From: Scenedesmus sp. ARA3 | Taxonomy: Eukaryota > Chlorophyta > Chlorophyceae > Sphaeropleales > Scenedesmaceae | Assembly: GCA_004335835.1 (NCBI GenBank) | Contig: RWJK01001889.1 | Coordinates: 1-64,000 of the forward strand | DNA: 64,000 nt | Direction of reading: 5' to 3' | Shown: positions 1-62,300 of the stretch, one piece after another | Position numbering within the stretch: the first letter of the stretch is position 1 | How the letters are laid out: each line of letters starts with the position of its first letter | Program-made: the position numbers and the translations under genes | The notes under the pieces: generated by a model | Databases searched by the model: none | What the model saw: the letters and a program-made list of their open reading frames with translations, nothing else | Told to the model about the DNA's origin: nothing

Positions 1-63
1 AGGATGCAACACACTGCATAGCAGGATGCAACACACTGCATAGCAGGATGCAACACACTGCAT
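1..63. repeat. 22-bp tandem repeat, about 2.9 copies
   Basis: The window opens with nearly three perfect head-to-tail copies of a 22-base unit beginning AGGATGCAACACACTGCATA. The array runs off the left edge, so its true length is unknown. No coding sense is evident. Confidence 0.9.
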
Positions 64-3802: not shown

Positions 3803-3843
<41 letters not shown>

Positions 3844-15518: not shown

Positions 15519-18500
15519 TCAGAGCTTGGCCTGCTGCCAGCTGCGGTAGCCGCCAGACACGTTGACGGCATCCTTGCCTGCCAGCAGCAGCTGCCGCGTG
15601 GCGTTGTAGCCGCGCAGGCCCACCTGCAGCAGAAGGGCAGCACAGGATACAACAGTGCGGCATGCGCGTCGCCGAAACACATAGTAGCTGGCTGGCAGAG
15701 AACGAGCGCTGGGCACAGTGTCATGCAGCATCGGCACAGCTTGCTACACGCAGAAGTGTAGCGGTTTTAGCACAGTGCAGACAGCTGCTAATACTTGCAA
15801 GGTACCGCTGAGTGGCTGTAGTGCAGCAGACAGATACGTACAGCAGCTGGCACAGCAGCCGGGAGGTGCACGTGCAGCATGGCCGCTTGTTGGCCAGAAC
15901 ATTAAACGAACAGCAACAACGCAGAGTCAAATCACGGTGCATGCACCCTTGCTTGGCAGTACATTTGTACCGCCCACCCCTCACCTGGCAGTACACGTAC
16001 AGCTTCTTGTCCTGCGGCAGCTCATGCAGCTTCTCCCGCAAGCTGCTCAGCGGGAAGTTCACAGCGCCCTCCACGGCACCCCTGGCCACCTCACCAGGCT
16101 GCAGGCAGGACAGTCCAGCAGCAGCGTGCAGCAACATTGTTTAAACATGCCACAGGCATTCGCAGCATGCAGACGCACGCAGCATGATTGGTGTCAGGAG
16201 GCATGGCGGCAGTGCAAAGGCATAGACACAGCAAGAGGCACGAGACTTGACGCTGTAGCTGCAGCTGCATTCCAATCTCGTGTGCGCTCTCATATACCCA
16301 TTATCTACTTGCTGCGCACCTCGCGCACGTCCACGATGAGTGCGCTGGGGTCTGCGGCCACAGCCGGCCAGTCCACTGCATCCCAGTGCTCCACTGGGTG
16401 GTCACCACGCATCACATTGGACGCAACCATGCCCGCCAGGTTCACGGGGTCCTTGGCGCTGCCATACTGCGGCGCTGCAGGGGCATGACAAAGCAGCAGC
16501 GGCATGTTGCAGCAGTGTGGCAGCAGACCAAACTGGTTAGATGTGCAGTTGCACAGAAGCCTTACACACGAGACCAAGCTCAGAGATGCAGCATCAATTC
16601 TTCAATGTCCTGCACAGGCAGTTTGTCTGAGCTGCATGCTTCTGCTTCTAGGGCACCATGCGGCTGCAGCTGCCCTGAGCATATCAAGTGCTCTACCTTT
16701 TACCACAATTACACCCATGATTTACAGTGCTTAGTGCTGCATGCGGCACAGCGTGCATGCTACAGCAGCAGCAGCAGCAGGCCACGGCACATCAACACAG
16801 CTCACTGTAGCAGAGCTCCGCCTCCTCCAGTTCAAATACTGTGCCTCCCTTCTGCACATGTGCACTGCTTGCCTGCCGTCGACTTTGTCTACGTTTGAAT
16901 GTTACTGGATGCAGCGCAGCTCACCGTAGCACAGCTCCGCCTCCTCCAGGTCAAACACTGTGCCTCCCTTCTGCACATGTGCACTGCTTGCCTGCCGTTG
17001 ACCTCGTCTATGTTTGAATATTACCGAATGCAGCACAGCTCACCGTAGCACAGCTCCGCCTCCTCCAGGTCAAACACGGTGCCTCCCTTCTGCATGAAGG
17101 CAGCCACCACGTCAACACGCTTCTCCACGCCCTCCTCGCCAACAGCCTGGCAGCCCAGCACCTTGCCGTCCTGCAAGGCGATTACACACAAGGACAGAGA
17201 GGCAGGCACGCAGCTGGGGCATCAGAAGTGCACATGTCCATGTGCTTCTCCACGCCCTCCTCGCCCACTGCCTGGCAGCCCAGCACCTTGCCGTCCTGCA
17301 AGGGGTATTGCGTTTCCCCACACATGCGGTCGCAACAAGCAGGTGAGCAGTAAGATCATCAGACTTGTTCATGTCAGTGCGTTTCTCCACACCCTCCTCG
17401 CCCATTGCCCAGCAGCCCAGCACCTTACCGTTCGGCGAGAGGGGCAGGCTGCAGCATCCACAGGCACAGGCAGAGGCCGAGGCAGCGGGGGCAACATCAC
17501 TGTACATATGCTATCTGTAACAACGCTGAAAAGCATCACTCTGTCCAGTCCTGATGAGGCTGCCACTTGCATGGTCAATGGTCTGCAACGTTCGCAGTAC
17601 CAGGTGCATTTGATGCCTCGTCACACCACCCCCTCCATCAGGTGCGTCGACGTACTTCCCTTGTGTACCAAACCACATTCTATAACATGCCATCAAAAAA
17701 GCATGCCGTGTTTGATTGGTTCAACAGAAAAAGCAGTAACTCGCCTCTGGGCTGAAGAGCAGCTTGAGGTCGATGGTCTTGGCTCCTGGGTAGTATCCTG
17801 CATGGTGCCCCGCGTGGATGTACACCTTGCGGTAGGGGATGGACAGCCGCTTCAGCGTCTTCTCACTCGCACCTGCACACAAGCCAGGAGAGAACATTGC
17901 TGACCCATTGCCTATGATGCATGTGGCCTCCACCAAGGCATAACTGTCGCTTGGCATATGTGCAGTGTGTGATGTGCCCAGCAACAACCTGTCCTGCAAG
18001 CATCCAATTTGGCATGACGCCCTCAACCTTGACGACTGCTGTCCTGCAAGCATGCTGCCCAGCAAGCCCGCGCAGAAAGAAACCCATTGCATCCACATAG
18101 CAACCAGGCTGGCACCTGTGCCTGCCAATGTCAGCCCGAAAATCCCCACTACGCTGCTGCCCTGGCTGCCCCTGAAGGTGCTGCTCCTGCCCGCGATGTT
18201 GTCAGCAGCGATGCGGCCCTGCCTGTTGGCCGGCCCTGCCAGCGGGATGAGCGTCTGCTGGCCGGTCACCCAGTCCTTGATCTCAACGGCGTCACCTGCA
18301 AGACCAAATCATCATACAAAATAGATTGGGATCCAGGTCTGGGTGCGGGTTAAGGTACAGGGTGAAAGTCGCGGGTGCACATCTACAGCACACCCAAAAT
18401 GTGCAAGCCACAGTGCATTGCAACAGCCCAGCAGAAGCGTTTCTGGCCAGTCTCCATGATGCAGCATGACCGTACATTGCGGCAACACGCACACCAGCAG

Positions 18501-19495
18501 CCACCCAACAGCCGCATACACCCAGCCACTGCGTAGATACTAGGGTTATTGGTGCGCATGTGCGCCAGTAAACTGCAGCAGCATGATACCAACAACACAA
18601 CAGGCAACAGGCGCATATGTGCAAATTTAGCCACCCACTGTGTGCATGCTGGGGTGCTGCATCTGCTCAAGCGTGCTGGTTCAGCGCAACAACCTCCACC
18701 TTGACAGGAGAAAGCACCCACCACCTCATTGCTTACACTCACCCACTGCATAGATGCTGGGGTCACTGGTGCGCATGTGCGCATCAACAGCAATTCCGCG
18801 CTGCCCCAGCGTCAGCCCGGCCTCCTTTGCCAGGCTTGTTTCTGGCCTCACGCCCACCACCAGCAGCGCCAGGTCAGCGGGCAGCGCCTTGCCACTGGCG
18901 GTGTGGACAACCAAGCCGTTGCCGCCGGCCTGCAAGCATGCATGAATCATCTTTATGCGCGCACATTTCATGATGTTGTGCTCTGTGGCTGCTTATGTGC
19001 GACACAATACAGTACCCCTCAAGCACTGCATACCTAAACCATATCAGACATCCGCCTGGTTGCTCTTTTGCATGCACCTCTGCCAGTGCAATTTGGCTGC
19101 TGCCTGCACTTGTCTTCCGAGATTGTGCCTCACACCCGCACTGCCTGCAGCGCGTAGCCGCACCTGCTGCTCGAAAGCCTTGAGGCCGTCCCCCAGGCAC
19201 AGCTCCACGCCCTTGGCCGCCAGCCGCTCATGCACCGGCTCCACCATCTCAGGGTCAAAGGGCGGCATCACCTGCAGGAAATAAAGACAGCAGCAGCAGC
19301 AGCAGCAGCAGAGACAGCATAGTGTTGACAGCTGCTCATGCACCGGGTCCACCATCTCAGGATCAAAGGGGGGCATCACCTGCAGGAAAACATATGCAGC
19401 AGCAGCAGCAGGTGCATAATAGTGTTGACAGCGGCAAATGCACGGGCTCCACCATCTCAGAATCGAAGGGAGGCATCACATGCAGGAAAACAAAG

Positions 19496-19533
<38 letters not shown>

Positions 19534-20024
19534 TACATCAAAGTGGTGACTGCCGCTCATGCACCGACTCCACCATCTCGGGGTCAAAGGGTGGCGTCAC
19601 CTGCAGGAACACGAAGGCAGCAGCAGCAGCAGCAGCTGATACAGCCGGGGCATGGCAAACATGTCAAATATAGCCATGTGCTTTCTCACCTGCAGCATCA
19701 TCTCCGTCAGTGTTGGCTTGATGCCCCAGCCCACCAGGTCCCACCACAGTCAAGTCCATCACCACACAGCTCTAACAACCACAAACAATCGCAAACACCA
19801 CACTACCAACAATTCAGCACCACAACCGCGCACAACCCAACACCACAACCTTCACATGGCTAGCGCACCTGCGGCAGCATCTCCACCAGGGTCGTCTTGA
19901 TGCCGCGGTGCACCAGGTTCTCCACCATCTCGATGCCGATGAAGCCACCCCCAACCACCACCGCCTGCTTCACGCTGTGCTCAGCAATCCAGGCCTTGAT
20001 GGCGCGGCTGCATGGTGCACAAAC

Positions 20025-20059
<35 letters not shown>

Positions 20060-22494
20060 GTGTGAATCTTGCAGGCAGCATGGGATTACCAGCTCAATGA
20101 AGCCACCCCCAACCACCACTGCCGGCTTCACGCCGTGCTCAGCAATCCAGGCCTTGATGGCGCGGCTGCAGGGAGACGAATGGCGCAGAAAACACAACGA
20201 CGCAGCAGCAATGGCAGCAGCACTGTGTAAGACTTGCAGGCAACATGGCATCTCCAGACAGATGAAGCCACCCCCAACCACCACCGCCTGCTTCACGCTG
20301 TGATCAGCAATCCAGGCCTTGATGGCGCGGCTGCAGGGAGACGAATGGCGCGGCAGCAGCAGCAGTAGCAACATAGGCTCATGCTGAAATGCCATACGAC
20401 TGTGTCGATGATGCCTCAACATGCACCTGGAAGCCCTGTCAGTCATTAACATCTGCCAGACCCTTAGCAATGAAACCAGCGCATGTACATAAACTTTGCC
20501 ACCCACCTGTCACGGACAGTCTTCACGCTAAAGATGCCTGGCAGATCCACGCCCGGCAGCGGCGGCTGTGACACACAACTGGCCGCTTTGCTTGCACGCT
20601 TGCAAGACAACTGCGATCTATCAGTCCGCAACAGACTGTACACGACAATTATCAGCATACAAACCCATTAACCCATTTTGTGGTAAATTCAAACCATCGT
20701 CTCACAACCGACCTATCTGGCACTGTCTTGACGCTGAAGATGCCTGGCAGATCCACGCCCGGCAGTGGCGGCTTCAGCGGCGCAGCGCCCGGGGACAGCA
20801 CCAGCGCATCATATGCATGGCTGCGCTGCTCGCCTGTGAGCACATTGCGCGCGGTAATGGTCTTCGCCTGCGGGGGTGATGGCACGTTAGCAGCAGGCAC
20901 GTTGCAGCATGCAGCATCTTTGTGAATGAGTTGAGGTGATGATGACACAGCATGACACTGGCAGATGTAGAGGCTGACATGGTGTTGTCAGGCAGTTGTT
21001 ACATTGCCGCTGAAATCACTTGTTGCAGAAGTATAAGAGCAGCCTGTGAAGGAATGTGCTGCAATGCTGAAGCTCTTTTGATTCAACTACAGCATAAACC
21101 AAGATCCAGCAGTGTGCTGCCTGCGCCGCCGCCGCCGCCGCAGCAGCAGGCGCCTCACCTTTCGGTCGATGCTGATCACTTCCGTGTTGTCCTGCACGTC
21201 CACATTGAACCACTTCTTGAACTTGGCAGGAGTAGCCACCAGCAGCTTCGATTCCTCCTGCAGGCCATTCACAAAGCACACAGCAGCAAGCGATGCGTTG
21301 TTGCTGTGGCTATATTGGTAGCTTGATGATGATGAGCAAACAGCAGCAGCCTTGCAAAGTCGATGGCCAATGCACTGATTGACATGCAGGTAGGTTTACA
21401 GGCGACTCTTCATTGCTCCTGCAAGCATGCACACAGCACCAGGCGTCCTTCAAGCAACACTCGCTTTCGCTGCTGTAACAGTGAGCTGCGTATCGACCAC
21501 GGCTGCGCCATTCTACCTCAATGAGGTCACCAAAGAAGTACCACAAAACCCAGGGCCTGTACATGCACATTAGCATTGTTGTTATAACAGAACCCACGCC
21601 ACCCACCTCAATGATGTCACCGATGAAGTAAGGCAGGCCGCAGTTCGCAAAGCTCACATACGGGCCCCGCTCAAAGATGGTGATCTCTGGAGTGGCAGGT
21701 AAGCAGTGCAGCCAGGCGCAGCAGAACACGCACAGCAGCGCAGTGGTCAACATGTTTTCCAGCATGTGCCGAAGGATACAAGGCCTCACTACACAGCAGC
21801 CACGCTTTTGAGATGCTGCCGATGCACAGTTCATTTCGCAAAGAGCATTGCTGTTGTGGCAGCCAGCACTTTCTAACACAGAGGCTTCTGTCCAGACCGC
21901 ACAAGTTGGCACACCCCACCCTGCAGACACCAGCAACTCAAACATCCGCAGGCATGGCAATCCGTGCTGTGTCTGTGTGAGAGCTATGCCTGACTTACTA
22001 GCATTGGGCAGTACTGATAGCAGCTCATTGTTTTGTGACACCAACGCAGCGCTGCTCCCACTGCTCAGCAAAAGCAGGCACAATTGAACATGCAAGAGGC
22101 CCGACGTCGACGCTGTGGTGTGCCCATGAGTCAAAATCTTTGCCTGTCATTTAAGCCATGCATGCTCTTTCAAAGCAGTGCATATGTCCATTGGCACCAC
22201 CGAGAGGCACTGCTGTTGTCAATATTCACAGGCACAGCTGAAGTGAATACAGCCACACAAACTGTCCAACAGAGTCTGTGCACCTGCTGCTTCTGTGAGC
22301 CTCCTCAGGCGTGCAGCTGCAGATGCTCCGCCAGCAACGCCTCCCACTACGAGAACTTTCATGGGGTCTTTGGATGCCGCAGCAGCTCGAACGGACAGCA
22401 ATCTGTGCAGCCTAGCAGGGTAAGGGCGCAGCAGCACAAGTTTCACTGCTGTCCTGCTCTGAAGCTGGGTGACGGCAACAGGCAGCCTGATCAT
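15519..22494 (-). CDS. CoA-disulfide reductase-like flavoprotein fused to rhodanese domain
   Basis: Thirteen exons: 22284-22494, 21607-21686, 21159-21257, 20713-20867, 19869-20007, 19164-19271, 18743-18929, 18116-18295, 17745-17872, 17044-17170, 16320-16474, 15985-16098, 15519-15623. They sum to 1,788 bases, 595 residues plus stop, in phase throughout. Residues 1-45 are Arg/Leu-rich without acids until the end, like an organellar presequence. FAD motif VLVVGGVAGG lies at 47-56; the single redox Cys of CoA-disulfide reductases is C86 (SFANCGLPYF); the NAD(P)H motif VVVGGGFIGIE is at 198-208; HHAGYYPGA and the ELCYAPQYGSAKDPVN dimer region follow. The rhodanese domain is about 500-595 with active-site C560 (YVYCQVGLRGYNATR). 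In bacteria such fusions reduce CoA disulfide, CoA persulfide or polysulfide with NAD(P)H. The site is complete, so an active enzyme is likely; the substrate is not decided by sequence. Intron 9 has an unusual GC donor. Confidence 0.88.
16798..17036 (-). repeat. Exon 10 3'-end echoes, two 119-bp copies
   Basis: Downstream of reductase exon 10, its last 45 bases (FDLEEAELCYG and the donor) recur twice, each copy 119 bases from the next (boundaries at about 16801, 16920 and the true 17039). The two intronic copies also share about 75 bases of following sequence with each other. Confidence 0.85.
17235..17440 (-). repeat. Exon 10 5'-end echoes, two copies
   Basis: Upstream of the same exon, its first 50 bases with the acceptor (DGKVLGCQAVGEEGVEKR) recur at about 17240-17300 and, more worn, at 17380-17440. 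Spacing is about 125 and 137 bases. So exon 10 is echoed on both sides. Confidence 0.8.
18515..18690 (-). repeat. Exon 7 3'-end echoes
   Basis: The end of exon 7 (HMRTSDPSIYAVG plus donor, 18743-18790) recurs at about 18530-18570, where it would read HMRTNNPSIYAV, and in a more worn form near 18637-18665. Both copies lie inside intron 7. Confidence 0.7.
19325..19640 (-). repeat. Exon 6 5'-end echoes, three copies
   Basis: The acceptor and first 40 bases of exon 6 (VMPPFDPEMVEPVH) recur three times upstream at about 19340-19385, 19450-19490 and 19570-19610. Each copy carries ACCTGCAGG at the acceptor and is followed by a CTG run on the sense strand, giving a unit of roughly 105-115 bases. Confidence 0.88.
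20088..20345 (-). repeat. Exon 5 5'-end echoes, two copies
   Basis: The acceptor and first 75 bases of exon 5 (RAIKAWIAEHSVKQAVVVGG) recur at about 20090-20170 and 20255-20340. Both copies break off at the same point, inside GGGFI, and then share the same intronic continuation, so they come from serial duplication. Confidence 0.88.
20505..20575 (-). repeat. Exon 4 3'-end echo
   Basis: A second copy of the end of exon 4 (PPLPGVDLPGIFSVKTVRDR with a donor GTGGGTGG) lies about 205 bases downstream of the true end at 20713. The copy keeps frame and donor, so it could compete for splicing. Confidence 0.8.
21510..21548 (-). repeat. Exon 2 3'-end echo, worn
   Basis: A 35-base copy of the end of exon 2 (YFIGDIIE) reads YFFGDLIEV here, about 90 bases downstream of the true donor at 21606. 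The donor itself is lost. Confidence 0.6.
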
Positions 22495-23607: not shown

Positions 23608-24852
23608 ATGTTCCTGCCACTGCTCGTGCTGCAGCTCTTGGCATGGCCCGCAGCGGGGGCCACGACACGGCCAGATGCAATTGCAAAAGTTGTGTACATC
23701 CGGCCACCGTATGGTCCCGAAGATATGCAGCTGCGTCATGCACTCAGCGATGCAAGTGTTGGCACCATTATTTTCACGACTGACTACAGTGCTGGGCAGC
23801 AATTTTCGGATTATTCTGGACCATTTAAGGAAGAAACGCCCGTGCTGGTGATCAACAGGTCGGTCCTTTGTTGCTGAGGAAGTCCAAAAGCATCAGCACC
23901 AGCAGTAGCAGCAGCAACAGATAGTTTCCTTGCACCAGCAGCATCGAGCTCTGTAGCTGATGCATCAAGCGCTTGCAGTCCCTCCTATTTTTGAGCATGG
24001 TGTGGCAGAAGCATGTCTGCTAGGATACCAGCACTCACGCGCACAACAGATGCTTACCCTGCATGCTCTGAACTGCTTGCAAGAGATATGCACAGCATAC
24101 ACTTCGTCTTACATGTCTTGCTCTGCAGCGTTGCAGCTGTATAGGTTTTATAACCGTGACTTATTTTACGGTTGACCATCACGGCTGCCGCTGCAGCATG
24201 CGGCCTTTCTTGTGGCGCTCCTGCAAGGCTCCAGCAGCAGCAGCTGCTGCTGCGTCTCGCGCCTCACTATGTGCCACATGCACACTGCTACACTGTTACA
24301 CTTGCAGGAATGTTACTTTGACCGGGCTGCCAGGTCAGCAGCCGCTGCTGGACTTTGACTTCAACCTGTCAGTGCTGGAGCTGTGCGATACCTGCACCTT
24401 TACAATTGAGGATATGGCCATCGCGAATGACAGAAGGGGTGCTAATGCTCAGCTGGACTTCTTTCTCGGGCGCGGCGGCAGCGTGCTAAACCTGACAAAC
24501 GTGATACGCAAGCGCGTGTCGTGCACAAGCATTGAGCCGGCGCTGCGGCTGGTGCACAACACGCAGCGCTCGCCGCGCTTCCCAGCACGCAACGGCAGCA
24601 AGGAGCAGGTAGGCCGCGCAGTAAAGGGCAGCGGCTGGCAGGCAGCGCAGCGCGCACATCATGGTTAATGACTAGCGGACGTTGTGCCCGGCTGCAGCAG
24701 GCGTTTGTGCGCCAACGCTATGCCTTCTCTGCTATCCCACAGCACGAAGCAACCCTGCATCAACCTGTGGCTGCTGCAGCTGCCCTTGCTGTGCATGGCC
24801 TGCGCTGTCAACAAGGCCTTGTGACTTGGAGTCGGCAAGCACACCTCACATG

Positions 24853-24906
<54 letters not shown>

Positions 24907-25095
24907 AGGTGTATGGCGCGCAGGACATCACCCTTCGGGGCAAGCTGTACCCGCGCACGCTGCACCTGAAGTTGCTGAGCAAAACATGCATGTGCTGCTG
25001 CTGCTGCTGAAGGTGTATGGCGCGCAAGACATCACCTTTCGGGGCAAGCCGTACCCGCGCACGCTGCAGTTAAAGTTGCTGAGCAAACATGCATG

Positions 25096-25133
<38 letters not shown>

Positions 25134-28100
25134 CAGGTGTATGGCGCGCAGGACATCACCTTGCGGGGCAAGCTGTACCCGCGCACGCTGCACCTGAAGT
25201 TGCTGAGCAAAACATGCATGTGCTGCTGCTGCTGCTGAAGGTGTATGGCGCGCAAGACATCACCTTTCGGGGCAAGCCGTACCCGCGCACGCTGCAGTTA
25301 AAGTTGCTGAGCAAACATGCAAGTGCTGCTGCTGCTACTGTTGCTGCTGCTGCTGCTGCTGCAGGTGTATGGCGCGCAGGACATCACCTTTCGGGGCAAG
25401 CTGTACCCGCGCACGCTGCACCTGAAGGACTACAGCGTGGAGTTCCCGCGGCACTACAACGGCGGCTACTCCCTAGTGAGGCGGCTGTTATTTGCGGCTC
25501 AGGGGACTGTTATTAACATGTCATGTAACTGTTGTGACAGTGGCGGCTGCAGGAGTGCCAGCAGCTGCACATGGGAGGGTTCAGGCACAGCAGCAGTGCA
25601 GGCAGCAGTAGGCATGCAGACAGGCTCAGCTGTCTTGAGCTGGCAGGCTGTAGCTTATGGGACTGTTATCAACATGTTATGTGACTGTTATGACAGTGGA
25701 ACACTGTAGCAGTGTCTGCAGCTGCGCATGGGAGGGCCAAGGCAGCAGCAGGCATGCAGACAGGGGCAGCTGTCGGGTGCTGGGTGACGCTGTGAAGTCT
25801 TGCAGGCTACGCTCACATCACATGCATGCTGCTTTTGCTGCTACTGATGCATCACGTGCCGCCGCGGCGGCTGCGCGTGTTGCTGGCAGGTGCTCTACAA
25901 TGTCTACCGCATGTGTGACAACTTTGTGGACGACAGCTGCCTGGAGAGCAGGGACGCTGACCAGTGCGTGTATGAGCACATCATGCAGCTGGTGCAGGGC
26001 AAGCCAGGCAGCAAAGCAGGCAGCAGCAGCGCAGCAGCGGCGGCGCTGTCGGCTGGCGCGATTGCAGGAATAGCTGTCGCAGGTGAGGGGTTGTACAGGT
26101 GTGGTTGAGCCATGTTGGTGAAAGACCTGCAGGGCATGCAACCCGCTGGTGCCTGCCGCTTGGCAGCTGCAATTGATGCCACGTAAGCAGCACAGGTCTC
26201 TTATCATGCAGATTCACATACACCTCAGCACGCCCACCGCGTCATGGTATCTCGCTGCTATCGCATAACAACACGCCCAGTGCTGATACCCCAGCTGCCG
26301 AGCACGTTACAACCGCCTTTGGCTCTGCCACACTCACACTTAGCGCCTTGCATTGCCATCCATCCCCTCACCTACCCGCAGCCGCTGCAGTCGCTGCGTC
26401 TATCGCTGCGCTAGTGCTGCTGCTGGTCATCCGGCGCCGCCGCGCAAACAGTGTACCCGCAGTGTACGCATGCAGCAACAGCTTCAAAGATCCAGAGGCA
26501 GCAGCAGCAGCAGCAGGCGGCGGCAAGAGCGTTGGTGCCCCTGGGAGCCTCGACAGCATCAGTCCCAATGACAGCAGCGCCGCAGGCACATCGTGAGTTT
26601 GCTGGTTGTGGCACAGCAGCGGCAGCAGCAGCAGCAGCAGTTGAAAAGCTTGCCATGAACTTTGCGGTTGCCTCACAAAGAGGCATGCTTAGGTCGCGAA
26701 GGTTTTACATTGTGCTGGTTTGGCTCTGCCGACTTGCGACAGCAGTGTGCGGTGAAGAGCAGCACCGCTGCTGCAGCATGGTCATTGTGGCAACTGCTGT
26801 CCCCTCAGCCACCCTATGCACACCATATTGCTCTGTTTGCATGCTCACCAAGCTGTGCATTCTTTCTGTTTCTCTCTGCTTGCAGCCGCATCTGCGCCGT
26901 CGTGTCCACGGCGCCAGCACCTGAAGGCACGCTGCAGCGCACCACCAGCAGCAGCAGCGCCGCGGCGGCACTGGAGCCAGCGCCTGGCGTGGTTGCGGCT
27001 GCGTACGGCCTGCAGTTCGGTGAGCAGATGCTGCCAAAGCTTGAAGGATGTTACAGCTGTGGCCGCATGGGCGACTATGCATGCAGTTCACATGGCTTTG
27101 TGTGTGGTGGGCTGTGCAGGCTGTACAGTACAAGCTGTGCTGCGTGCGCTACCCGCTGCAGTTGTGCAACAGGCACAGCGCCCTGCATGCAATCAAGTTG
27201 CTCCGCAGACCTTGGCTTCTGAATCATCCTTCGCCTGTATCTCGCCTCCTCATCAACTAATGCTTCTGTGCTCAATGCCAGCGCTTTGCTCTCACTGCTG
27301 CTTGCACCGGCGGGTGTGCTGCTGGGCTCGGGGTCCTTTGGGCACGTAAATTGCAACAAAGCCAAGCCATTTATCTTGTGTCTTCTGTTCAATTGTTTCC
27401 TGTTGCACCCGCAGGCGTGCTGCTGGGCTCGGGCTCCTTTGGGCGCGTGTACCGCGCCAAGTGGCGGGAGCGCGACGTGGCAGTCAAGGTGCGCGCGTCT
27501 ACATGCTTCAGGCGTTTCTGGGCTCACCATTTTCCCTGCATCAGCCGAGTTTGAGGGGACAACTGGCATGCTGGTGCTTCAATGTGTGTTAAAAGCTTGC
27601 GTGATGCGCTGTCGTGCATTCTCTGCTGCACTAAGGTGCACCAGCACCCCGCACCTGTGACGTGACAAACAACAAAGCGTTCACCTGCTCCCATGTTTGC
27701 CATTGCACATGTGCCTGTGATTGTGTTGCATCGTGCAGGTCATCGAGCACGACTCGCGCATGGCAGCAGCAGTAGCAAACGAGGTGCAGTTGATGCTCAG
27801 CTGCAACCACCCCAACGTGGTGCGCGCATACCACTACATCACACACGCGCAGCAGCGCAGCACAGGCCACCAGCAACAATCAGCAGGAGCCACACCAATC
27901 GGCGGCACACCCGGCCAGCTTGCCGGCAGCGCAGACACCGCTGCTGCTGCTGCCGGCCGCACAAGCAGCGGCGGCGGAGGCTTTGGCGGGCCGCACATTC
28001 AGCAGCAGCAGCAGCTGCAGCACAGGTCGGATGGCAACGGGCTAGCCGCCACAGGCAGCGGCCCGCAGCAGCAGCAGCCGCAGCAGCAGCCGGGTAGGCC

Positions 28101-31100: not shown

Positions 31101-31199
31101 TGACCTTGCCTCCACACTCACAGGTCAGCCACCAGAGACGCCGCCAGTATGCTGCCTGATCGTGCGGCTCCACTCAAATGCATTGTAAACCTGTCAGCT

Positions 31200-31231
<32 letters not shown>

Positions 31232-31425
31232 AACACAGGTGCTGGTCCACCAACCCTGCCGACCGCCCCAGCAGCAAGATGGTGTGCGAGTGCCTCGCGC
31301 TCATGCTCACAGAAAGGCAGCAAGCGCTGGGCCTGTCGTCAGTGGAGCACAGCAGCGCCAGCTATGGCAGCAGCGGGCAGGACATGCTGCCACCTGATGT
31401 TACTGGCTGGGCCGGCAGGCGCTGA
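23608..31425 (+). CDS. Receptor-like protein kinase (TKL group), single-pass membrane protein
   Basis: Fifteen exons: 23608-23858, 24308-24608, 25365-25475, 25890-26082, 26382-26592, 26886-27019, 27415-27488, 27739-28542, 28874-28992, 29241-29277, 29443-29586, 29967-30019, 30394-30469, 30790-30863, 31239-31425; 2,769 bases, 922 residues, in phase throughout. A signal peptide (MFLPLLVLQLLAWPAAGA) leads an ectodomain to about 275, whose start resembles beta-helix proteins. One membrane segment at about 281-302 ends in RRRR. The kinase has the P-loop GSGSFGRV near 405, VAVK at 425, HGDLNARNVLI near 742, DLG in place of DFG near 765, PPELL near 795, and the CW...DRP motif near 862. A Gln/Gly/Ala-rich insert of about 215 residues sits inside the N-lobe after NHPNVVRAYHYI. 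Ligand unknown. Catalytic Asp and Lys are present, so activity is likely. Confidence 0.88.
24850..24908 (+). repeat. (CTG)n run ending at an acceptor
   Basis: About 18 CTG units run straight into CAG, forming the acceptor of the first exon 3 copy. The same arrangement, with fewer units, precedes every copy and the true exon. Confidence 0.85.
24909..25364 (+). repeat. Kinase exon 3 5'-end echoes, four copies in a nested pattern
   Basis: Copies of acceptor plus about 63 bases of exon 3 (VYGAQDITFRGKLYPRTLHL) start at 24909, 25013, 25137 and 25241, before the true exon at 25365. Spacings alternate 104, 124, 104, 124, so the real repeat unit is 228 bases made of two unlike halves: an older duplication was itself duplicated. 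Odd copies use a CTG-CAG acceptor and read RTLHLK; even copies read RTLQLK after a GAAG junction. Confidence 0.93.
27300..27352 (+). repeat. Kinase exon 7 5'-end echo
   Basis: Just over 100 bases before exon 7, the P-loop coding start recurs (GVLLGSGSFGHV) and runs into GTAAAT, a fair donor. This echo could give a spurious mini-exon. Confidence 0.82.
28770..28808 (+). repeat. Kinase exon 9 5'-end echo
   Basis: Acceptor TTTTGCAG followed by EFCDSGTL is present at 28782, 92 bases before the true start at 28874. Use of the upstream acceptor would meet a stop codon, so the second one is taken as real. Confidence 0.8.
30254..30342 (+). repeat. Kinase exon 13 5'-end echo, 85-bp unit
   Basis: The acceptor CTGCCTGCAG and the first 35 bases of exon 13 (FGVMMWEMYC) occur at 30309 and again, truly, at 30394. 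The preceding intron sequence (TTTTTGTACTGCCTGCAG) is copied too. Confidence 0.88.
30958..30990 (+). repeat. Kinase exon 14 3'-end echo
   Basis: ATGGAGAGGTGCGGC with its donor is repeated about 105 bases downstream of the true exon end at 30863. Confidence 0.65.
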
Positions 31426-31640
31426 GGGACGGTGCAGTCAGCAGGTGCTGAGGGGTCGAGCACAGCAGCGCTAGTCATGACAGCGGGCAGCACATGCTGC
31501 TGCCTTCTGGCGCGGCAATCAGACGCTGAGGGACGGCAGCGGAGCACAGCAGCGCCAGCTATGGCAGCAGCGGGCTGCACATGCTGCTTCCTGATGTTAC
31601 TGGCTCGGCTGGCTTGGCCGGCAGGCGCTGAAATGGATGA
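31342..31640 (+). repeat. Kinase C-terminal tail repeated across the stop codon
   Basis: The last 80 or so coding bases and the stop (from GAGCACAGCAGCGCC to GGCGCTGA) are followed by two diverged copies, at about 31457-31530 and 31545-31632. Each copy again ends in GCGCTGA. Only the first belongs to the open frame; the others are 3' untranslated. Confidence 0.8.
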
Positions 31641-40342: not shown

Positions 40343-40376
<34 letters not shown>

Positions 40377-41536: not shown

Positions 41537-41571
<35 letters not shown>

Positions 41572-42259: not shown

Positions 42260-42298
<39 letters not shown>

Positions 42299-51561: not shown

Positions 51562-54500
51562 CTACTCCGCCGTTAGCAGCTCATCCAGCTGCCCAGCTGC
51601 TGCCAAGCTCTCCTGCCACCTCTGCACCATGCCCCGCACGTGCGCGCTGCCCACCACGCTCACAACTGCTCTGGGCCCTGCCAGGGGCACGTATGGCCCA
51701 TCACCAGCGCCTGCTGGCGCGCTGCTTGCAGTGGCCCCCTCAGGCACCATGTAGCGCCAGATCAGCTGCCCATCATCCTACAAGTGGCAAACAGCACATG
51801 AATGTGGCACGCAGGGCTCAGAACCAGAAAGCGTTGAGTGCAGATGCAGGAAGCAATGAATGCGGCGTTTTCAACCGGTACAGCAGCAGCCACGGCCATT
51901 AGGCAACTTCAAGCAACTGCGCATCAGCCATGACGCAGCATCTCAGCCATGTCTGCAGAACTGCAGCGACACAACCTGACCAATTGGTGCTACACCATGC
52001 AAACAACAGCTGCATCAAGTCATCGCTCAACAAACACCATTTGAGAAAACCGCCTTCGCTGCATCACCTGGTCAGCAACGTATGCAGGCACGTTGGGGTT
52101 GCTGCCCTGCGCTGCAGCCGCCACCACGCGCGCCATGTACGCGTCACGCTCCTCAATGAGCGGCGTCACTGCGCCGGGCCACTTGAGCAGCGCATCCTCG
52201 CCCCACACAAAGAAGGGCTGGTCCAGGCGCTCCTGTACAACAGACATAGAAACAGAACAAGTGGCGTCGGAAGATGTGCATGATAGTCGAAAGTGAAGCA
52301 AGCATAAAATTACAGGTACGCAACAGGCCAGAGAACTGCAAGGTAGGTACAGGCACAAATAGCAGCCATCAATGCCAAGGGCCTGCATGGACAGGCTGAT
52401 GTGGTCCAGCGGTGCAACTTTCAACTGGCAATAAGTGCACTTGCCGGTTGCCACTGCCCCATAGCCTTCTTCATCCACTGCTGTGCTGCACACCAAAATA
52501 ATGTCTCCGACAGACACGACACGCGTGCGCACATACTTGAGTGCACATGAGCAAGTAAGACATGACACTTACAGCCAGGGTAGCGTAAGCCCCATTTAGG
52601 CGTGTGAGCGAGAGTTACGCTGCGTTGCGCTTTTGCAAGTTGTGCGTCCTGCAAGTATATACAATAAACGTGAACGCACCTGCAGCGGCTCCTTGATGGC
52701 CACAGCTGCCTCCACCTCCTCCACAGCTTCTTCACCCACTGCTGTACTGCACAAATACCAATCCCAACAGAAATGACACGCATGCACACATACAAACACA
52801 CATATATGTGCACGCACCTGCAGCGGCTCCTTGATGGCCACAGCAGCCTCCATCCAGTGCTGTGCTGCAAATTGAACCAAGGTCTCCAACAGACACGACG
52901 CGCATGCTGTATTGGTACATAGAAACGCATATAAGTGCACGCACCTGCAGCGGCTCCTTGATGGCCACAGCTGCCTCCACCTCCTCCCCGCTCAGCCTGC
53001 TGAAGCGCCACACCTCCACAAAGGGAGCCAGCACAGGCCACGCCAGCGCCAGCGCAGCAGCAGCAGACCCAAACACAATGCCCGCATCGCCTGCAGCAGC
53101 GCTGCCTGCTGCTGCCTCCACATCTGGCAGTGCGTGTGTGGCTGCTGAGACGATTCCTGCAAGCAGCAGCCCGAGGGATGCTGCGAGGCGGCCGCCGCTG
53201 GCTGCGGAGATGCCAACAGCCAAGCGGCGCTGCGTCACATTTGAGGGGCGGTCTCCTGCAAGGCAACAGCGATAGGATTGATGCATTCATGCATTGGATT
53301 TAAGGAAAATGGTGCAAGGCATTGACTATTGGTGTTGTTGTGGTCATCATGTTATGGGCGCATGCAGACCAAGCCCAACCTGCACTGCGCTACTTCTGCT
53401 TGCAGCCGTGTACCAAGCAGGCCAGGCAAGCCGAGCCAACAACGACGCTGCGTGACATGCTGACTGCCGGCGCTCTAGAGAAAAAGTTTTGATGTTTGCT
53501 GGGTAAATTCGTATCAGGCACTTACCCAGCAGCACTTGCTGGCTGCCCACTTCACATGCTGCCTCCAGTGCAGCCCTCCAGGCAGCACCAGAGGTGATGC
53601 CTGCTGCATCGCCTGCAAGCGCAAATAGCAGCAAAACAGCATCAGAACACACGCACATACACGTGCATGTTTTGGCGGCGTTGTCACAGCGTGATACATG
53701 TGCATGCAGGCGTTTAAAAGGCAGTCACCAGGGCTGCTGCTGCTGCTGGTGCTGCCGCATGGGCGCCAGCCACAGGCACTGCATTAGCTGCGTTTGCTGC
53801 TGCACATACTGTTGTTCTCCCGCACCTGCTGCTGCCTGCAGCCGTGAGTACAGGCCTGTCATTAGCTGCGCAAACGTGTCTGCCACTGGGTTGGCTGGCA
53901 GCCTGGCGTCAGCAGTGGACACCTCATCTTGACTCCACAGCCTGAACTGCGTCCTGCATGGCTCAAAAGCAAGCAGCAGCGCATGCAGCATCAACACATC
54001 AGCACTGTAGGCGGTACAGCAGGCAGCAGCACAGGTGAAACTGCGGCGCAAGAACCACAATCATGCAGTCATTCAAACCAGCAGCTCAGTACAAGAACAG
54101 CCGCACTTGACCTCCCGAGCAACATGAATCCGCCTGCCACCCCGCACTGCACACCCCAGCAGAGTAGCAGCGCCGCACACAGCTGCGCTGCGCGGACTCT
54201 CAGCAACCTCCTCACCACCGCCGCCACCACATACGCACCTGCGCTCCCAGCCTGCATGCGGCGGCAGCACGCGCTCCGCCTGCCTTGCTGCCCGCGCAGC
54301 AGCCAGCCGCTCCGCTGCCTCAGCAGGCAGCAGCATCCCCGGGCTCAGCTGCACACTGGTGCGCTGCGGCTTAAAGGAGTCAATGCCTAGCCCCTCGCCT
54401 CCCTCTGCACTGCCTTCAAGGCCAGATACATAGGCCGGGTCTGCATCGCGCCGTGCGCGCACAAGCACTTCGACCCTGCCGCTTTCAACGCCGCTGAAAG

Positions 54501-56758
54501 CCACCACGATTTGGTCTGGCTGCGGGAATGCGGCTGCAAGCTGTGCACGCAGCTGCAGGTACAGCTTCAGGCTGCTGTCTGTGTCTGCTGCCTTCTCCTT
54601 CTCCTTGTCTTCCTCTTCTTTGTCCTTTTCCTTATCCTTTTCTTCCTCTGCCTTGCCGTCCGCTGCTGCCTTTGCTGCTGCTGCCGCCTTTGCCTCCGCA
54701 GCAGCAGCCTCAAGCAGCCCACTTGCAACGCCCTGCAGCTGCGCAGCATCCACACCTGCATCCTTCAAGCTGCTGTCCAGGCGAACTTCAATGCTGCTGA
54801 CCAGCGGGAGCTTCCGCGGCTCCACTATGAACTTCAAACTTCCCAGCGGCGGCACCAGCTGCAGCGCGACCTCGCCGGTGTAACTAGTTACACCACTGCC
54901 GGCCTCGGCACCTGCTGCTGCTGGGTTTGGCTGCTGCTGCTCCTCCTCGTCGCCTGTGTCTGGCTTTACTGCTCCGAATTGAGGGGCCTCGCCCCTGCCT
55001 GCATTCATAGCTGCTGGGCGGGCCTTGCCGAACAGACCAGTGGCCAGTAGGCGTGCACAGTCCAGCTCAATTTCCTGCAAAGCAAATGTGAGACAGCATG
55101 ATCATTGTCATAGTCACATTTGCATTCCAGCCACAGCAACAACATCGCACAGGCAGGGGAAGATGCACGTACAAGCAGCCGCAGCTACCATTGATGGTGC
55201 CAAACACAAGGCATAGCCGGATCTTAAGCCGGCGGGGCAACACCCCAGCATCCCATTGCAGTGCACCAAGTTGTAAAGTTGTGGAGTTGTGAAACTGTGA
55301 CGCACACCTGTGTGGTGACTGCTGCTCCAATCCTGCTTGCGATCAGCTCCAGCAGCTGGCTCTGCTGCGGCCACAGCGGGTCGTCTGCTGGCACGCCGTC
55401 AAGCATCACTTTCCTGCAACAGGGTAGCAGCAGCAACAGCAGCTGGAGTTGGTGGCAAAATCATGTGCAAAGCTTGCAGCATGCTGCACCAAACAGCCAT
55501 GCCCCAGTGCATGCAGCAAGATGCGGCAGCTAGCCTGCGCCATCCAAGCACGTGTAGGTACGACGAGGTGACAGACGTCACCGACACATTTTTCATGGCC
55601 TTCACAGCAGCCATCAATCAGCAGCACCAGTATACTATGATGAACTTCACAGCAATGACAAAGGCATTACCAATGAACTCCAGTGCCTTTAAACGAACTT
55701 CACACAATCATAAGGGCATTTCAATGAAATTCACCTGCAGTGCCAGGTGTCCAGCCGCCGCTCGGGGTTGACTGGGTCCACCAGCAGCCAAACTTAGTTC
55801 AAACAGCACTGAAAACATATGTATCAGGGGGAAATCAGATCACCTGCAGTGCCAGGTGTCCAGCCGCCGCTCGGGGTTGACTGGGTCCACCAGCAGCCCA
55901 AACTTATTTCAAACAGCACTGAAAACATATGTATCAGGGGGAAATCAGATCACCTGCAGTGCCAGGTGTCCAGCCGCCGCTCGGGGTTGACCGGGTCCAC
56001 CAGCAGCCCCAGCCGCTCCTTGCACAGCTCCACCATGACCACCTCGGGCCGCACAGCACGCACCAGCTGCTTGATCTGGTCACACGACACCTGCGGCAGC
56101 AGCAGCAACGGCAGCAGCAGCGGCAGCAGCAGCAGCAGCAGCAGCAGCGGCAGGTTGGTGCACAGCTCGACTCCGGTGACACATGATTGAGTGCTGACTA
56201 ATGTGTTGCACGTACTGTGAGACCACGACTGCTTTGTGTTGAGGTTTGGCAAGTGGGCAGTGACAGACTTGACAGCATGAGCTGCAGCATGGCTTGCAGT
56301 AGACAGCACCATCAACGCTAAAGCACACACCTGCGAGACGTGTGACACGCCCAGCACAAACACGCGCGTGACGCCGCCAGGAGCTGCAGGGTTTGGCGCC
56401 TCCAAAACCGCTGTGGCGTTGCGCAGGTCTGTGGGCAGCTGCTGCCATGACGTTACTGGTGCTGCTGCTGCTGCTGCTGCTGTGCTGGCGACCTGGAAAG
56501 CACAACCAATTGTAGCTGAGGAGGTTGGCCAGGCGCTGTGCAGGTCGCAACATCTGTGCACATGGCAGTGTTGCACAACTTTGGATGCCTACCAATCAGC
56601 TGCTGCCACTTTGCAGCCTGCCCAGAATCTACTGGTGTCAATGTGAGTTGTTGCAAGCTGAGGAACGGATTCATGGTGCCATGTGCAGATGCAGGGTTGA
56701 CCTGACAGCATTGCTGATGCATCAGATGGGTAGTAGCACAAGCACGTGACATGCACAT
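51562..56758 (-). CDS. TraB-family membrane protein
   Basis: Exons that join in phase: 56331-56492, 55954-56090, 55308-55413, 54239-55074, 53826-53953, 53526-53612, 52945-53255, 52068-52232, 51562-51777 (715 residues). The first exon is uncertain; 56702-56758, from an ATG at 56756-56758 to donor GTCAAC, fits in phase and adds 19 residues. TraB signatures: VFVLGVSHVSQ, then IKQLVRAVRPEVVMVELCKER, the middle AAWRAALEAACEVGSQQVLLGDRP, LPLIEERDAYMA-type sequence (TPLIEERDAYMARVV), and a terminal VVSVVGSAHVRGMVQRW. Between the two conserved halves exon 54239-55074 adds an Ala/Lys/Glu-rich charged linker. Exon 52945-53255 has two hydrophobic stretches (LGLLLAGIVSAAT and ALALAWPVLAPFVEVW), so it is probably membrane-bound. 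TraB relatives in plants act at organelle contacts; the role here is inferred only. Confidence 0.8.
52680..52872 (-). repeat. TraB exon 7 3'-end echoes, two copies
   Basis: The end of exon 52945-53255 with its donor (EAAVAIKEPLQ, GTGCGT) recurs with donors at 52817 and 52679, spaced 127 and 138 bases. Both copies keep a usable donor, and the copied block includes about 50 bases of intron. Confidence 0.9.
55730..55953 (-). repeat. TraB exon 3'-end echoes, two 109-110-bp copies
   Basis: The end of exon 55954-56090 (LVDPVNPERRLDTWHC) and its donor recur with boundaries at about 55845 and 55735. Copies 1 and 2 are almost identical over the whole 110-base unit, so this duplication is recent; the third copy has lost the intronic part. 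Confidence 0.93.
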
Positions 56759-57405
56759 TCTGCAGCGGCGCAGTGGCCTTTATACCTTGTCTGGTGTAGC
56801 AATGTGCACCCGCAGCAAGCAGCCACGCTGCCTGCATCTGCCAGGTGCTGCTCTATGTGAAGTGACTGAAGTTCCAGCACTGTGAGACAGCATCATGGCG
56901 TGTATGCCTGGTCCTTTGTGTAATTATGTCTATGTGTGTTTGCAGAATTGAGCAATCGCAGCTATTGCTGGACCAGTGCGTGACAAGCAAGTCGGAAGAG
57001 TCGAGATTTGGCACCAGGCACGACCAGAACCCGAGATCATCTCCGGCATATGTTCGTCAACGCCGAAACCTATGTTATCATACACACAAAGCGTCAACAC
57101 CTTGCAGCTGACGAAAGTGACCATGTGACAGTGTGACAGCAACGGTTTGAGGGTGCAAGACAAGGGAGCAAAGCAAAGAAGCTCTCACTTGCAGCTGTAA
57201 CTTGTGATGTTTTACCTGCAGCTCAGCGCACCGCACCTGCTGTCCTTTACCAGGCAAACAAGTCTTTCGTTCGGCCAACACATTGCAAGTAAAACAAACT
57301 GCTACTTTTCTTGATCAACGAGCACAAAAAGTGTTTTTGAGCTTCTGTTTGCACAAACTTTGCAGTCTCTCTCCTGAGTCAGCCAGCAGCAGGAGCAGCA
57401 GCAGC
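56759..57405. promoter_or_regulatory. Divergent region, TraB gene / EF-hand-like gene
   Basis: About 650 bases between the uncertain TraB start and the ATG at 57406. It holds the 5' flank of both genes. No motif stands out and there is no supported coding sequence. Confidence 0.45.
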
Positions 57406-59804
57406 ATGGAGTACCTGGGTGATGTCAGCAAAAAAGTAGAAGACTTCATCCGCAAGAGTGATCAGTTCCAAACAGCCTGCAACAGCGCCTTTGACCAAGT
57501 AGATGTGAGGGGGCTGGGCAGTATACCCATCAGCCATGTGGCTCTTGCCACTGTCTACTTCTTCCGGGTAGGGTTTGCTCCACTGCTCTCAGCTGCGTTT
57601 GCATGCATGCATGCGTGTTTGCCACCTACAACATGGCTGGCTTAGAGATGCTTCTAGCACCGTTCCAGTAGGCATGAACAGCGCTGGTTTGCCACCTGCT
57701 TGTGTGCAGCTGCTGTGCAGTGCATACCGCTGACCCTGCCCTCGCGCATGCATACTCTTGAATATCCTTGCAGGATGTCAGCACAGCAGTAGACGACTTT
57801 GGTGAGTCGCCTGCCTAGCTACATCGGATGGGTTGATTGTCTAGCAGATGCCAGTGATTGCTGTGGAAGTTTGTCTTTTGCTGCGCTGACCGGTGCAGCT
57901 GCTGCCTGGAATGTGTGCATGCATCCATGCATGCATGCACTGGCGGCTTGCTCAAGAGTGCTAATCAGCAGCAGCTGCTGCGGCAGCTGTGCAGGGCTTG
58001 CATTAACAGTAGTGACGCTGCTGCCTGCCTTGTGCGTCTTTGGCTGGTGAACTTTACACCACAGCAGGTTCAGGAGACTTTTGTGTGTTTCATGCGTCGC
58101 AGGCATCAAAGTGAAGGAGCCAACAGCAGAAGAGGTCAAGAAGATCTTGCTGGTGCGCCAGCAGCCCACAACTTTTGCAGCAGATGGAAAACATCCTGCT
58201 GGCGCGCTGATACATTCTGCGGCAGTGCACAAGCAGTGTGCACGCATGCTGCTTCGACATGCATGCATGTACATGCATGCATAGGTGCACATGATTGAGT
58301 TGCCTTCAAGCCTTGTGCGGCAGGACAGCCCCATACTGCAAATGCAGTTGTCTCAGTGCTGCAGCCACACATCTTTTTTTGGTGAGCATCAGCTGACAGA
58401 CTGGTTGTGCTGCCTCTGCTGCTGCGGCTCCACCATGCTGCTTGCAGGATAATGGCTTTGAGGAGGGCGATGATGTCAGCAGAGCAGAGTTTGAGGTGAC
58501 TGGCTGCATTGCAGAGCAGAGCAGAGTTTGACGGCAGCACCGCAGAGCAAAGCAGAGTAGAGCAGAGTTGGCAGCATTGCAGAGCAGAGCAGAGTTTTAG
58601 GTGACTGGCAGGGCTGCTGCACTGCTGTGATACACTGTTAACAATGTGCAAGCAGGGATGGCTGCTATGTCAGCAGTGCTTGCAGTTGTGTGAAGCTGCT
58701 CAGCTGCTGGGCGTAGGCTGCAGAGGTTGACTTGACTGTGCACTGTAGGCGCTGCCTGTGCAACCGCACAGCACGGCAACTGCTTGCTGCGCTGCTTGCG
58801 TGTTGTTGGAGGGATGATACGTATACCTGCCTCATGCAGCTTTTTGCTTTCGCGACAGTTGACGGTGAGCTGCTACTGCAGCGTGTTGAAGCTGGCAATG
58901 TGTGTCACGGAACTGCTGCTGATCCGCTGCCTGGCGATGTGTGTGCGCTGTGTGCTGCAGACTCTCTACGTAGCAATCCTCAAGTATGCAGCAGTCAAGT
59001 GCGCAGTCGGCTTTGCACAGAAGTGAGTGTTGGTGTGCTGGCATGTGTTAGACTGCAGCCAGCGTGGTTGCTTCGAGCGCTGCAATGGATTGCATACGCA
59101 TGCAACTGCAACTGCACATGGTTGCACATGCATGCATGCGCGCTCAGCATGCACAGAATGACGTGTTCCACGTCAAGGCTGCTCTGCAACAGCAGCAGCA
59201 GCAGCTACTGCTGTCACCTGGCCGTGGGCTTCACCGCGGTGCTCACTCTGAAGAAGGCCATTGGCTACACCCAGTGTTCTGCAACACGTCTCATTGCTTA
59301 TCCCTTCCCTGTGCTCTTTTTGCTCTGTGTTCTGTGTTTTGCCGCCAGGTATGGCGTGGGCATGGCAGTGGGCTTCACGGCTGTGCTCATCCTGAAGAAG
59401 GCCATTCGGGCAGTGCCTGTGGTGGGAGGCATCGCCAAGCCCATCCTGGGTGAGCTGCTGGGCTGCTGCTGCTGCTGCCGCCGCTGCTGCAGCTGCTGCA
59501 GCTGTGTATGTTCACACATGTTTTCGTGTTCTGCAAGCGTGCCCAGTTGTTGTGTGGCAGCAACAATGTTGCAGTTGCAGCTGCTTGCTTTGATTGAGTG
59601 CAGCAGCAGGCTGCAGGCCGCTGCGATCAGCTTGCTGCCGCCGCCGCCGCCGCTGCTGCTGCTGCTGCTGCAGGCCTGCTGCCAGCGCCGCTGCTGGGCC
59701 CGCTGCTGGGCATCCTGGGCGTGTATGCGGCAGACAGGGGGGACCTGGCAGATGTGCGGCGCAAGCTTTTTGGCGACAAGAAGGGACAGTTCAAGTCGGG
59801 CTGA
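57406..59804 (+). CDS. Small membrane protein with degenerate EF-hand-like N-terminal half
   Basis: Seven exons, 57406-57567, 57774-57801, 58103-58152, 58448-58495, 58961-59022, 59349-59449 and 59674-59804, sum to 582 bases and 193 residues. Residues 1-60 (VEDFIRKSDQFQTACNSAFD) and 75-100 (EPTAEEVKKILLDNGFEEGD, then DVSRAEFE) look like a pair of EF-hands in which the loops are worn: the second reads DNGFEEGDDVSR, the first DQVDVRGLGSIP, so calcium binding is doubtful. A short helical part (LYVAILKYAAVKCAVGFAQK) and two hydrophobic Gly/Leu-rich segments (GVGMAVGFTAVLILKKAI and GLLPAPLLGPLLGILGVYAA) follow, then a basic tail. It looks like a land-plant/algal family of unknown function, anchored in a membrane. 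Exons of 28-62 bases are unusually small. Confidence 0.75.
58496..58612 (+). repeat. EF-hand-like gene exon 4 3'-end echoes
   Basis: GCAGAGCAGAGTTTGAGGTG, the end of exon 4 with its donor, is followed by two or three worn copies at about 58510-58530, 58540-58568 and 58575-58608. The last ends in the full GTGACTGGC. Confidence 0.75.
59205..59275 (+). repeat. EF-hand-like gene exon 6 5'-end echo
   Basis: GTGGGCTTCACCGCGGTGCT and the following AAGAAGGCCATT (VGFTAVLTLKKAI) lie about 150 bases before the true exon 6 codons at 59371. The acceptor of this copy is not preserved. Confidence 0.8.
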
Positions 59805-62247: not shown

Positions 62248-62300
62248 TCACCACATTGCTGCCTCTGCTGACTCAGCAGCAGGCGAGGTGGCGCCCAGCA
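61925..62300 (-). repeat. 146-bp tandem repeat spanning the stop codon of the rightmost gene
   Basis: Three copies, with matching points near 61928, 62074 and 62220. The unit contains the C-terminal codons (sense LLGATSPAAESAEAAMW and stop in the coding copy), then a 3' untranslated part with TTTCTTTTTCGACAAA. Only the rightmost copy is coding. Confidence 0.85.

Follow-up and report, generated by a model that had tools for sequence, protein, structure and literature searches.

Partial copies of exon borders in the introns of a green alga resemble the 'mirage' minisatellites of amphioxus

How do fragments of exons, each carrying a splice border, come to lie in the neighbouring introns of unrelated genes? 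The question is raised by a stretch of 64,000 nucleotides from the green alga Scenedesmus sp. ARA3 (contig RWJK01001889.1, positions 1 to 64,000; hereafter the window), in which an earlier note, made from the letters alone, had listed exon borders of five genes with partial copies, or echoes, close by. Such copies are real. In the three genes whose structures could be rebuilt, 16 of 72 exon borders have a copy in the adjacent intron, and the repeat unit contains the host exon-intron border. The arrays that these copies form are probably splice-border minisatellites, of the same kind as the 'mirages' of amphioxus, and they would arise by short-range duplication, expand and then decay neutrally.

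The gene structures were obtained by spliced alignment to proteins of Tetradesmus obliquus, which was used in place of an untrained gene finder that strayed into CAG repeats and fused genes. The three genes encode a CoA-disulfide-reductase/rhodanese-type protein, a protein kinase and a TraB-like protein (reductase, kinase and TraB below). With 99.8% identity to a T. obliquus protein for the reductase product and 97% for the kinase and TraB products, the window belongs to T. obliquus or a very close relative. The three genes comprise 36 introns, with 13,322 bases in introns and 6,549 in exons; each border is denoted by its exon number followed by a for acceptor or d for donor. Exon 8 of the kinase gene was set to 27739-28542 because protein P0145 and the gene finder continue through a stretch that protein P0144 skips. 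Genome-wide searches covered the 87-Mb genome in 1567 contigs.

Borders were scanned by comparing about 50 exon and 8 intron nucleotides (nt) with the adjacent intron, and a copy was called when its score exceeded the maximum of 100 shuffles per border by more than 4. Copies were found at reductase 2d, 4d, 5a, 5d, 6a, 7d, 10a and 10d, at kinase 3a, 7a, 9a, 13a and 14d and at TraB 4d, 7d and 9d, so that every border listed by the earlier note in these genes was recovered, provided that the exon numbering agrees. Two matches are weak (reductase 2d, which scored 37 where the shuffles reached 24; TraB 7d, 34 where they reached 29) and four further borders, marginal in the scan, are left out of the count. 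Arrays hold up to five echoes, in direct orientation and in the adjacent intron. Identity of the echoes to the real edge ranges from about 74 to 99% when the window and other loci are taken together, which bears out the claim that copies of differing age coexist. Local repeats in the window are overwhelmingly direct, with 37 direct and no inverted pairs lying within 3 kb after a complexity filter (124 and 27 unfiltered), and 49 and 3 with low-complexity masking (E <= 0.001). The geometry that had been described as fixed is also found, acceptor copies lying upstream and donor copies downstream, although it follows from the position of the copies in the adjacent intron.

Pieces taken from exon centres in the same scan matched in 7 of 57 cases; five of these come from exons whose border in that direction bears an array, and the other two are kinase exons 5 and 6, which match intron 5. 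Seventeen of 99 intron-centre pieces matched. Three of them belong to an intron-only array in kinase intron 3 and one is a weak match in reductase intron 8, while the remaining 13 lie in introns that bear border arrays, where they presumably fall on echoes.

The earlier note had allowed that an apparent preference for borders might come from the eye of the reader. Under a strict border test, the farthest pair of copies was taken from each array in the three genes and counted as anchored if it ended 2-20 nt on the intron side of the true border and included at least 15 nt of exon. Q-rich pairs within kinase exon 8, a pair beyond the kinase stop (31337-31613) and every window array not covered by a protein-based gene model (coiled-coil, EF-hand-like and 62 kb) were dropped from the border counts. 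Ten of 15 arrays were anchored, compared with 1.96 (standard deviation, SD, 1.30) expected from random placement in the same gene, and none of 20,000 trials reached ten. The simplest alternative is that tandem duplications occur at random, those within exons being purged and those at borders remaining visible for longer through their constrained exon part, in which case the preference would reflect survival and detection. This is rather unlikely, since excluding fully exonic placements raises the expectation only to 2.47, and again none of 20,000 trials reached ten.

Anchoring is also seen elsewhere in the genome. Seventeen further stretches, totalling 155,687 bases, served as controls, although three of them were not arbitrary: L004 adjoins the window, and L005 and L006 came from matches to a window query. 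The 17 stretches hold 56 arrays, comprising 149 direct pairs and 4 inverted ones. Splice-site models were trained on the window's 36 introns and used to score, in each array, the end expected for its shortest pair of copies. A site scoring at least 8 was present at that end in 19 of the 56, compared with 5.8 expected (SD 2.3, maximum 14 in 2,000), and one scoring at least 6 in 28, compared with 13.8 expected. With strict anchoring in three genes and recurrence in other loci, the border preference is not merely a bias of the reader. The density of arrays varied from 0 to 10 per 10 kb; arrays occurred in 13 of the 17 stretches and were not all at borders. L004, L006, L018 and L019 hold 7-10 arrays each, and no local duplications were found in the 10-kb stretches L008, L009, L011 and L017.

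Several points weigh against a general rule of border anchoring. Both strict tests, at borders and at array ends, were devised after looser ones, so that their probabilities were not planned in advance. The looser border test, which accepted any straddling copy and had little power, gave 12 of 15 arrays compared with 8.4 (p 0.031) and 7.8 (p 0.023) expected, the 15 falling into 12 border, one intron-only and two mixed arrays. In the control stretches, 28 of 56 arrays lacked a site scoring at least 6 at the expected end, and a test that accepted a splice site at any place within a copy gave no significant excess (40 of 56 compared with 33.8 at a score of at least 8; p 0.11 for mean scores). The array in kinase intron 3 is confined to the intron, and the copies at kinase exons 13 and 14 include 27 and about 100 nt of intron, respectively; all three resemble plain tandem duplications. 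Random tandem duplication also gains from old pairs, in which it is chiefly the exon part that aligns. The test of flanks described below included 28 control arrays that had been preselected for a splice site near their end. Finally, in some arrays a middle echo is degenerate and the far echo near-identical to the real edge (by eye, L018 6367-6650 and L007 592-869 and, least clearly, L004 6461-6794), which hints at gene conversion, or at exchange past the nearer copy, and complicates the reading of ages.

The typical form of the arrays is (core-filler)n-core, where the core consists of some 20-90 nt of exon edge and little beyond the splice consensus. Homology often stops there even in pairs that are 95-99% identical. 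Sharp intron-side ends in copies of about 95% identity or more lie 5 nt into the intron at L004 6461/6725, 7 nt at L004 4882/5008, 5 nt at L018 6367/6595 and 8 nt at L019 3496/3730, where junctions were assigned by motif, and 4 nt at TraB exon 4. Flanks were compared in 42 arrays, 14 from the window, placed by gene models, and the 28 from the control stretches. Similarity above the 95% level of the null was found on the intron side in five and on the exon side in one, leaving 37 of 42 with no extension into the intron flank. Among the 15 arrays that were at least 93% identical, 11 lacked flank extension and the other four have CTG runs in the flank. The intron-side breakpoint of the first copy is tied to the splice signal in most of the cases seen.

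The copies had been described as tandem. They are direct and local, with a smallest offset of 80-159 bp in 65 of 78 arrays (window and control loci), but most are separated by filler and so are not strictly tandem; in 17 multi-copy arrays, 45 of 52 spacers measure 39-94 nt. A simple tandem duplication across the border, as the earlier note proposed, would leave filler after the last copy. Such filler is missing from the donor arrays of TraB exon 4 and reductase exon 10, and from most of the arrays examined; pure tandem duplication is not supported for these, although kinase exons 13 and 14 and intron 3 do look plainly tandem. The abrupt ends of young copies in 11 of 15 arrays likewise argue against it, as do the 37 of 42 arrays whose flanks show no similarity.

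It could instead be supposed that the duplications are plain but old, and that gene conversion has kept renewing their cores with the sequence of the real exon, homology thereby shrinking to the constrained exon and the splice consensus. The degenerate middle copies and fresh far copies mentioned above are in keeping with this, as is the coincidence of core ends with the end of constraint. Conversion should however produce a continuum of flank homology, and there is none in the 11 young arrays that lack CTG runs. In the 17 multi-copy arrays, moreover, adjacent echo cores are barely more alike than adjacent fillers (89.6% compared with 85.1%), although the fillers hold far more gaps (1,078 gap columns compared with 194). 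Refreshment by conversion is rather unlikely.

The core-filler-core arrangement, with one cut at the splice consensus, also looks like an insertion between two copies of its target, the filler then being a mobile element that inserts at splice sites and the core its long target-site duplication. This is most improbable. Both of the two fillers that were searched genome-wide matched only themselves, and 31 fillers compared with the sampled loci gave three short matches outside their own neighbourhood. No common filler ends were apparent by eye, and cores range in length from about 20 to 90 nt. On the evidence of these two genome-wide searches and the 31 fillers compared, the filler was rejected as a transposon.

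An artefact of assembly is scarcely credible. The copies, found on many contigs, are 1-26% divergent and carry substitutions of their own. Short-read assembly, moreover, tends to collapse arrays of repeats rather than create them. A precedent for error does exist, in that one amphioxus mirage was misassembled in a genome draft, according to a passage of PMC3087553.

Once formed, the echoes seem to be left to decay, and probably do nothing. In the exon parts of 20 of 21 echoes (a misregistered reductase echo, with an offset of 126 and 30% identity, was omitted), 47 differences are synonymous and 45 are not. The synonymous fraction of 0.51 compares with 0.30 expected from change in the echo only and, by arithmetic, about 0.46 with synonymous drift of the real exon. 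Neither this count of substitutions in 20 echoes nor the retention of splice signals gave a clear sign of constraint. The alternative that echoes are selected, as alternative half-exons or decoy splice sites, draws on the fact that the splice dinucleotide is intact in 19 of the 23 echoes examined and that the gene finder reads several of them as exons. It is very unlikely, because retention is roughly what neutrality predicts at 90% identity and the substitutions look neutral. A second splice site near the exon-side end was found in 6 of 42 echoes, compared with 18% of random places. As it is no commoner than at random, most echoes are half-exons, unable to serve as cassette exons, and the suggestion that they supply spare splice sites is weakened accordingly.

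The claim that only the copy contiguous with the exon is used agrees with the protein alignments of all three genes, which fit that splice site. P0145 also matches kinase exons 1-8 at 99.8%, spanning 4.5 kb of the genome, though its longest source contig is 2,887 bases. We therefore infer that it derives from spliced RNA in which the echoes at kinase exons 3 and 7 are skipped, and its product passing over two arrays is a further point against selected echoes. The proposal that the process lengthens introns is consistent with median lengths of 540 nt for introns with arrays (n=13) and 270 nt for those without (n=23; Mann-Whitney p 1.2e-5), a comparison that is partly circular as the array itself adds length.

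These observations may be assembled into a sequence of events for the formation of splice-border minisatellites. Initially, a short-range duplication would place an exon edge of about 20-90 nt, together with the splice consensus, in the adjacent intron, usually some 40-90 nt away across unrelated filler. The resulting filler and core unit, mostly 80-160 bp, would then be multiplied by unequal exchange or slippage to give up to five echoes; the repeated structure is evident in the arrays, and the process is proposed from it. The exon-contiguous site would stay in use and the copies be tolerated, as suggested by one protein for two kinase arrays and by the fit to annotated proteins for the others. 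The last stage, in which copies appear to decay more or less neutrally while the exon stays constrained, leaving the introns longer, is supported by the comparisons above. The best guess as to the initial event is that a duplication arose when a break at the junction, or next to it, was repaired, perhaps in connection with transcription.

A more specific, and tentative, proposal is that splice junctions set one breakpoint of a recurrent local duplication, bound splicing factors or nascent RNA defining the copied end at about +5 for donors and -6 to -12 for acceptors; it is on balance improbable. Possible routes would be breakage where U1 or U2AF delimits an RNA:DNA hybrid, or the copying of trimmed nascent RNA. 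If it were true, DNA would bear footprints of the spliceosome, and mutation bias rather than selection would make introns grow.

The original report of mirages is said to be that of Canestro et al. in 2002, and to our knowledge border repeats were previously known only from amphioxus. In the passages of PMC3087553 and PMC3902484 that deal with them, mirages are minisatellite-like repeats over exon-intron borders in the Adh, globin, troponin C and PGBD5 genes. They occur at donor and acceptor borders, in several copies that are 81-100% identical in one globin gene, with units from 10-72 to about 160 bp. Splicing is reportedly undisturbed, and AG or GT is kept in many, though not all, copies (PMC3087553, PMC3902484). 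The amphioxus globin paper, in its passages on mirages, describes their origin as unclear and suggests that introns can be gained from them. The algal arrays share the border-containing unit, the occurrence at both types of border and the direct, multiple copies of differing age in the adjacent intron. They differ in belonging to a green alga rather than a cephalochordate, and in their presence at many borders of one 64-kb window; local arrays, not all of them at borders, also occur in 13 of the 17 further stretches. Neither the filler structure nor the phase-locking to the splice consensus that are seen in the alga is mentioned for mirages in the passages of PMC3087553 and PMC3902484 concerned. 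A literature search of titles and the openings of abstracts found no published report of such border repeats in algae, and the word 'intron' is absent from the main text of the T. obliquus AS-6-11 genome paper and from the DOE0152z genome announcement. What is new is the abundance of the arrays in a green alga and their phase-locking to splice signals; the closest known kind is the amphioxus mirage.

Other systems share some of these features. In the potato RdRp gene, a duplicated intron-exon structure came into use as a new intron, as a passage of PMC4974935 relates. That case too is a local duplication carrying splice signals; unlike it, the algal copies sit inside existing introns and show no sign of use. 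Frequent small intragenic duplications have been proposed as a source of introns in a study cited in PMC3087553; as cited, these are duplications that make introns, and border-anchored arrays go unmentioned in the citing passage. We know of nothing that links staggered-break duplications to splice junctions. Small, direct tandem duplications of less than about 100 bp occur at staggered breaks with overhangs in other organisms, according to passages of PMC8355091, in which patch-mediated breaks in rice are also cited. Like the echoes these are short and direct, but those passages mention no link to splice junctions, and the word 'filler' is absent from the paper.

Dense border repeats in a green alga suggest that such repeats are no oddity of chordates, and they can now be studied in a culturable organism with several sequenced strains. 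Phase-locking provides a sharp mechanistic clue, as it predicts a change in DNA that depends on a splicing signal. The system also makes it possible to test directly whether duplication at borders makes introns longer and contributes to intron gain.

Table 1. Genes and repeat arrays in the window, with their positions and the basis of each assignment.
Feature	Position	Strand	Basis or remark
CoA-disulfide-reductase/rhodanese-type gene	15522..22362	-	13 exons; aligned to P0001 (T. obliquus OEZ85_013349), 99.8% over 551 aa; Pfam domains
Reductase exon 10 donor array, core-filler-core-filler-core	16793..17094	-	Echo cores 97% and 91% vs real edge; identity between fillers 87%
Reductase exon 10 acceptor array, 2 echoes	17118..17442	-	Repeat search, junction inspection, border scan
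Reductase exon 7 donor echo	18514..18782	-	Repeat search, junction inspection, border scan
Reductase exon 6 acceptor array, 3 echoes, filler with CTG tracts	19221..19645	-	Repeat search, border scan
Reductase exon 5 donor echo (79%)	19687..19918	-	Repeat search, border scan
Reductase exon 5 acceptor array, 2 echoes	19926..20351	-	Repeat search, junction inspection, border scan
Reductase exon 4 donor echo	20501..20773	-	Repeat search, junction inspection, border scan
Reductase intron 2 with weak exon 2 donor echo	21258..21606 (intron span, not echo position)	-	Border scan
Protein kinase gene	23725..31422	+	16 aligned exons, counted as 15; P0144 (97%), P0145 (99.8% over exons 1-8)
Kinase exon 3 acceptor array, 4 echoes	24868..25427	+	Repeat search, junction inspection, border scan
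Kinase intron 3 duplication, intron-only, exception to border rule	25497..25783	+	Repeat search
Kinase exon 7 acceptor echo	27302..27448	+	Repeat search, junction inspection, border scan
Kinase exon 9 acceptor echo	28775..28896	+	Repeat search, junction inspection, border scan
Kinase exon 13 acceptor echo, 27 nt intron included	30280..30424	+	Repeat search, junction inspection, border scan
Kinase exon 14 donor duplication, plain tandem, about 100 nt intron, not phase-locked	30847..31080	+	Repeat search, border scan
Coiled-coil gene donor array, 4 echoes; core end 5 nt beyond predicted exon end 37815	37142..37891	-	Gene-finder exon only
Coiled-coil exon 39383-39534 donor echo; core end 3 nt beyond predicted border	39244..39453	-	Gene-finder exon only
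Coiled-coil exon 39383-39534 acceptor echo; core start 6 nt ahead of predicted border	39474..39666	-	Gene-finder exon only
TraB-like gene	51565..56896	-	11 exons, placement of first two weak; P0121 (97%), P0122 (87%)
TraB exon 9 donor array	52466..52987	-	Repeat search, junction inspection, border scan
TraB intron 7 with weak exon 7 donor echo	53613..53825 (intron span, not echo position)	-	Border scan
TraB exon 4 donor array, 98% identical, last copy ends at +4	55731..56009	-	Repeat search, junction from protein alignment
EF-hand-like gene copy pair, candidate border echo	59219-59262 / 59363-59406	+	Repeat search, gene finder
Further array at predicted exon end, absent from the earlier note's list	61931..62318	-	Gene-finder exon only

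Outside the three rebuilt genes, the echoes reported for the coiled-coil gene stand in that three borders match repeats, though its exons are those of the gene finder; for the EF-hand-like gene one copy pair was seen and could not be placed on a border. The array of kinase intron 2 (exon 3 acceptor) contains a 228-bp higher-order repeat in which units of 104 and 124 bp alternate, so that odd and even copies form two classes.

Some features of the gene models are also of note. The Q-rich stretch 27820-28431 is treated as an intron in the public T. obliquus kinase model P0144 and is entered by P0145; its omission from the former is likely an annotation error or an alternative intron. The last aligned kinase exon is echoed past the predicted stop, at 31337-31613, so that another 3' exon may follow and the public C-terminus may be wrong. 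The intron at reductase exon 9 is of the GC-AG type, with the donor gag/GCGAGT at 17739-17748 fixed by the 99.8% identical protein. On the minus strand of window positions 1-15000, the gene-finder translation contains at least three related long reading stretches with common motifs ('LPALPLAWAKRLL', 'LPAAQQLS'), apparently a tandem gene family, and a perfect 22-bp tandem repeat occupies positions 1-63, at the edge of the window.

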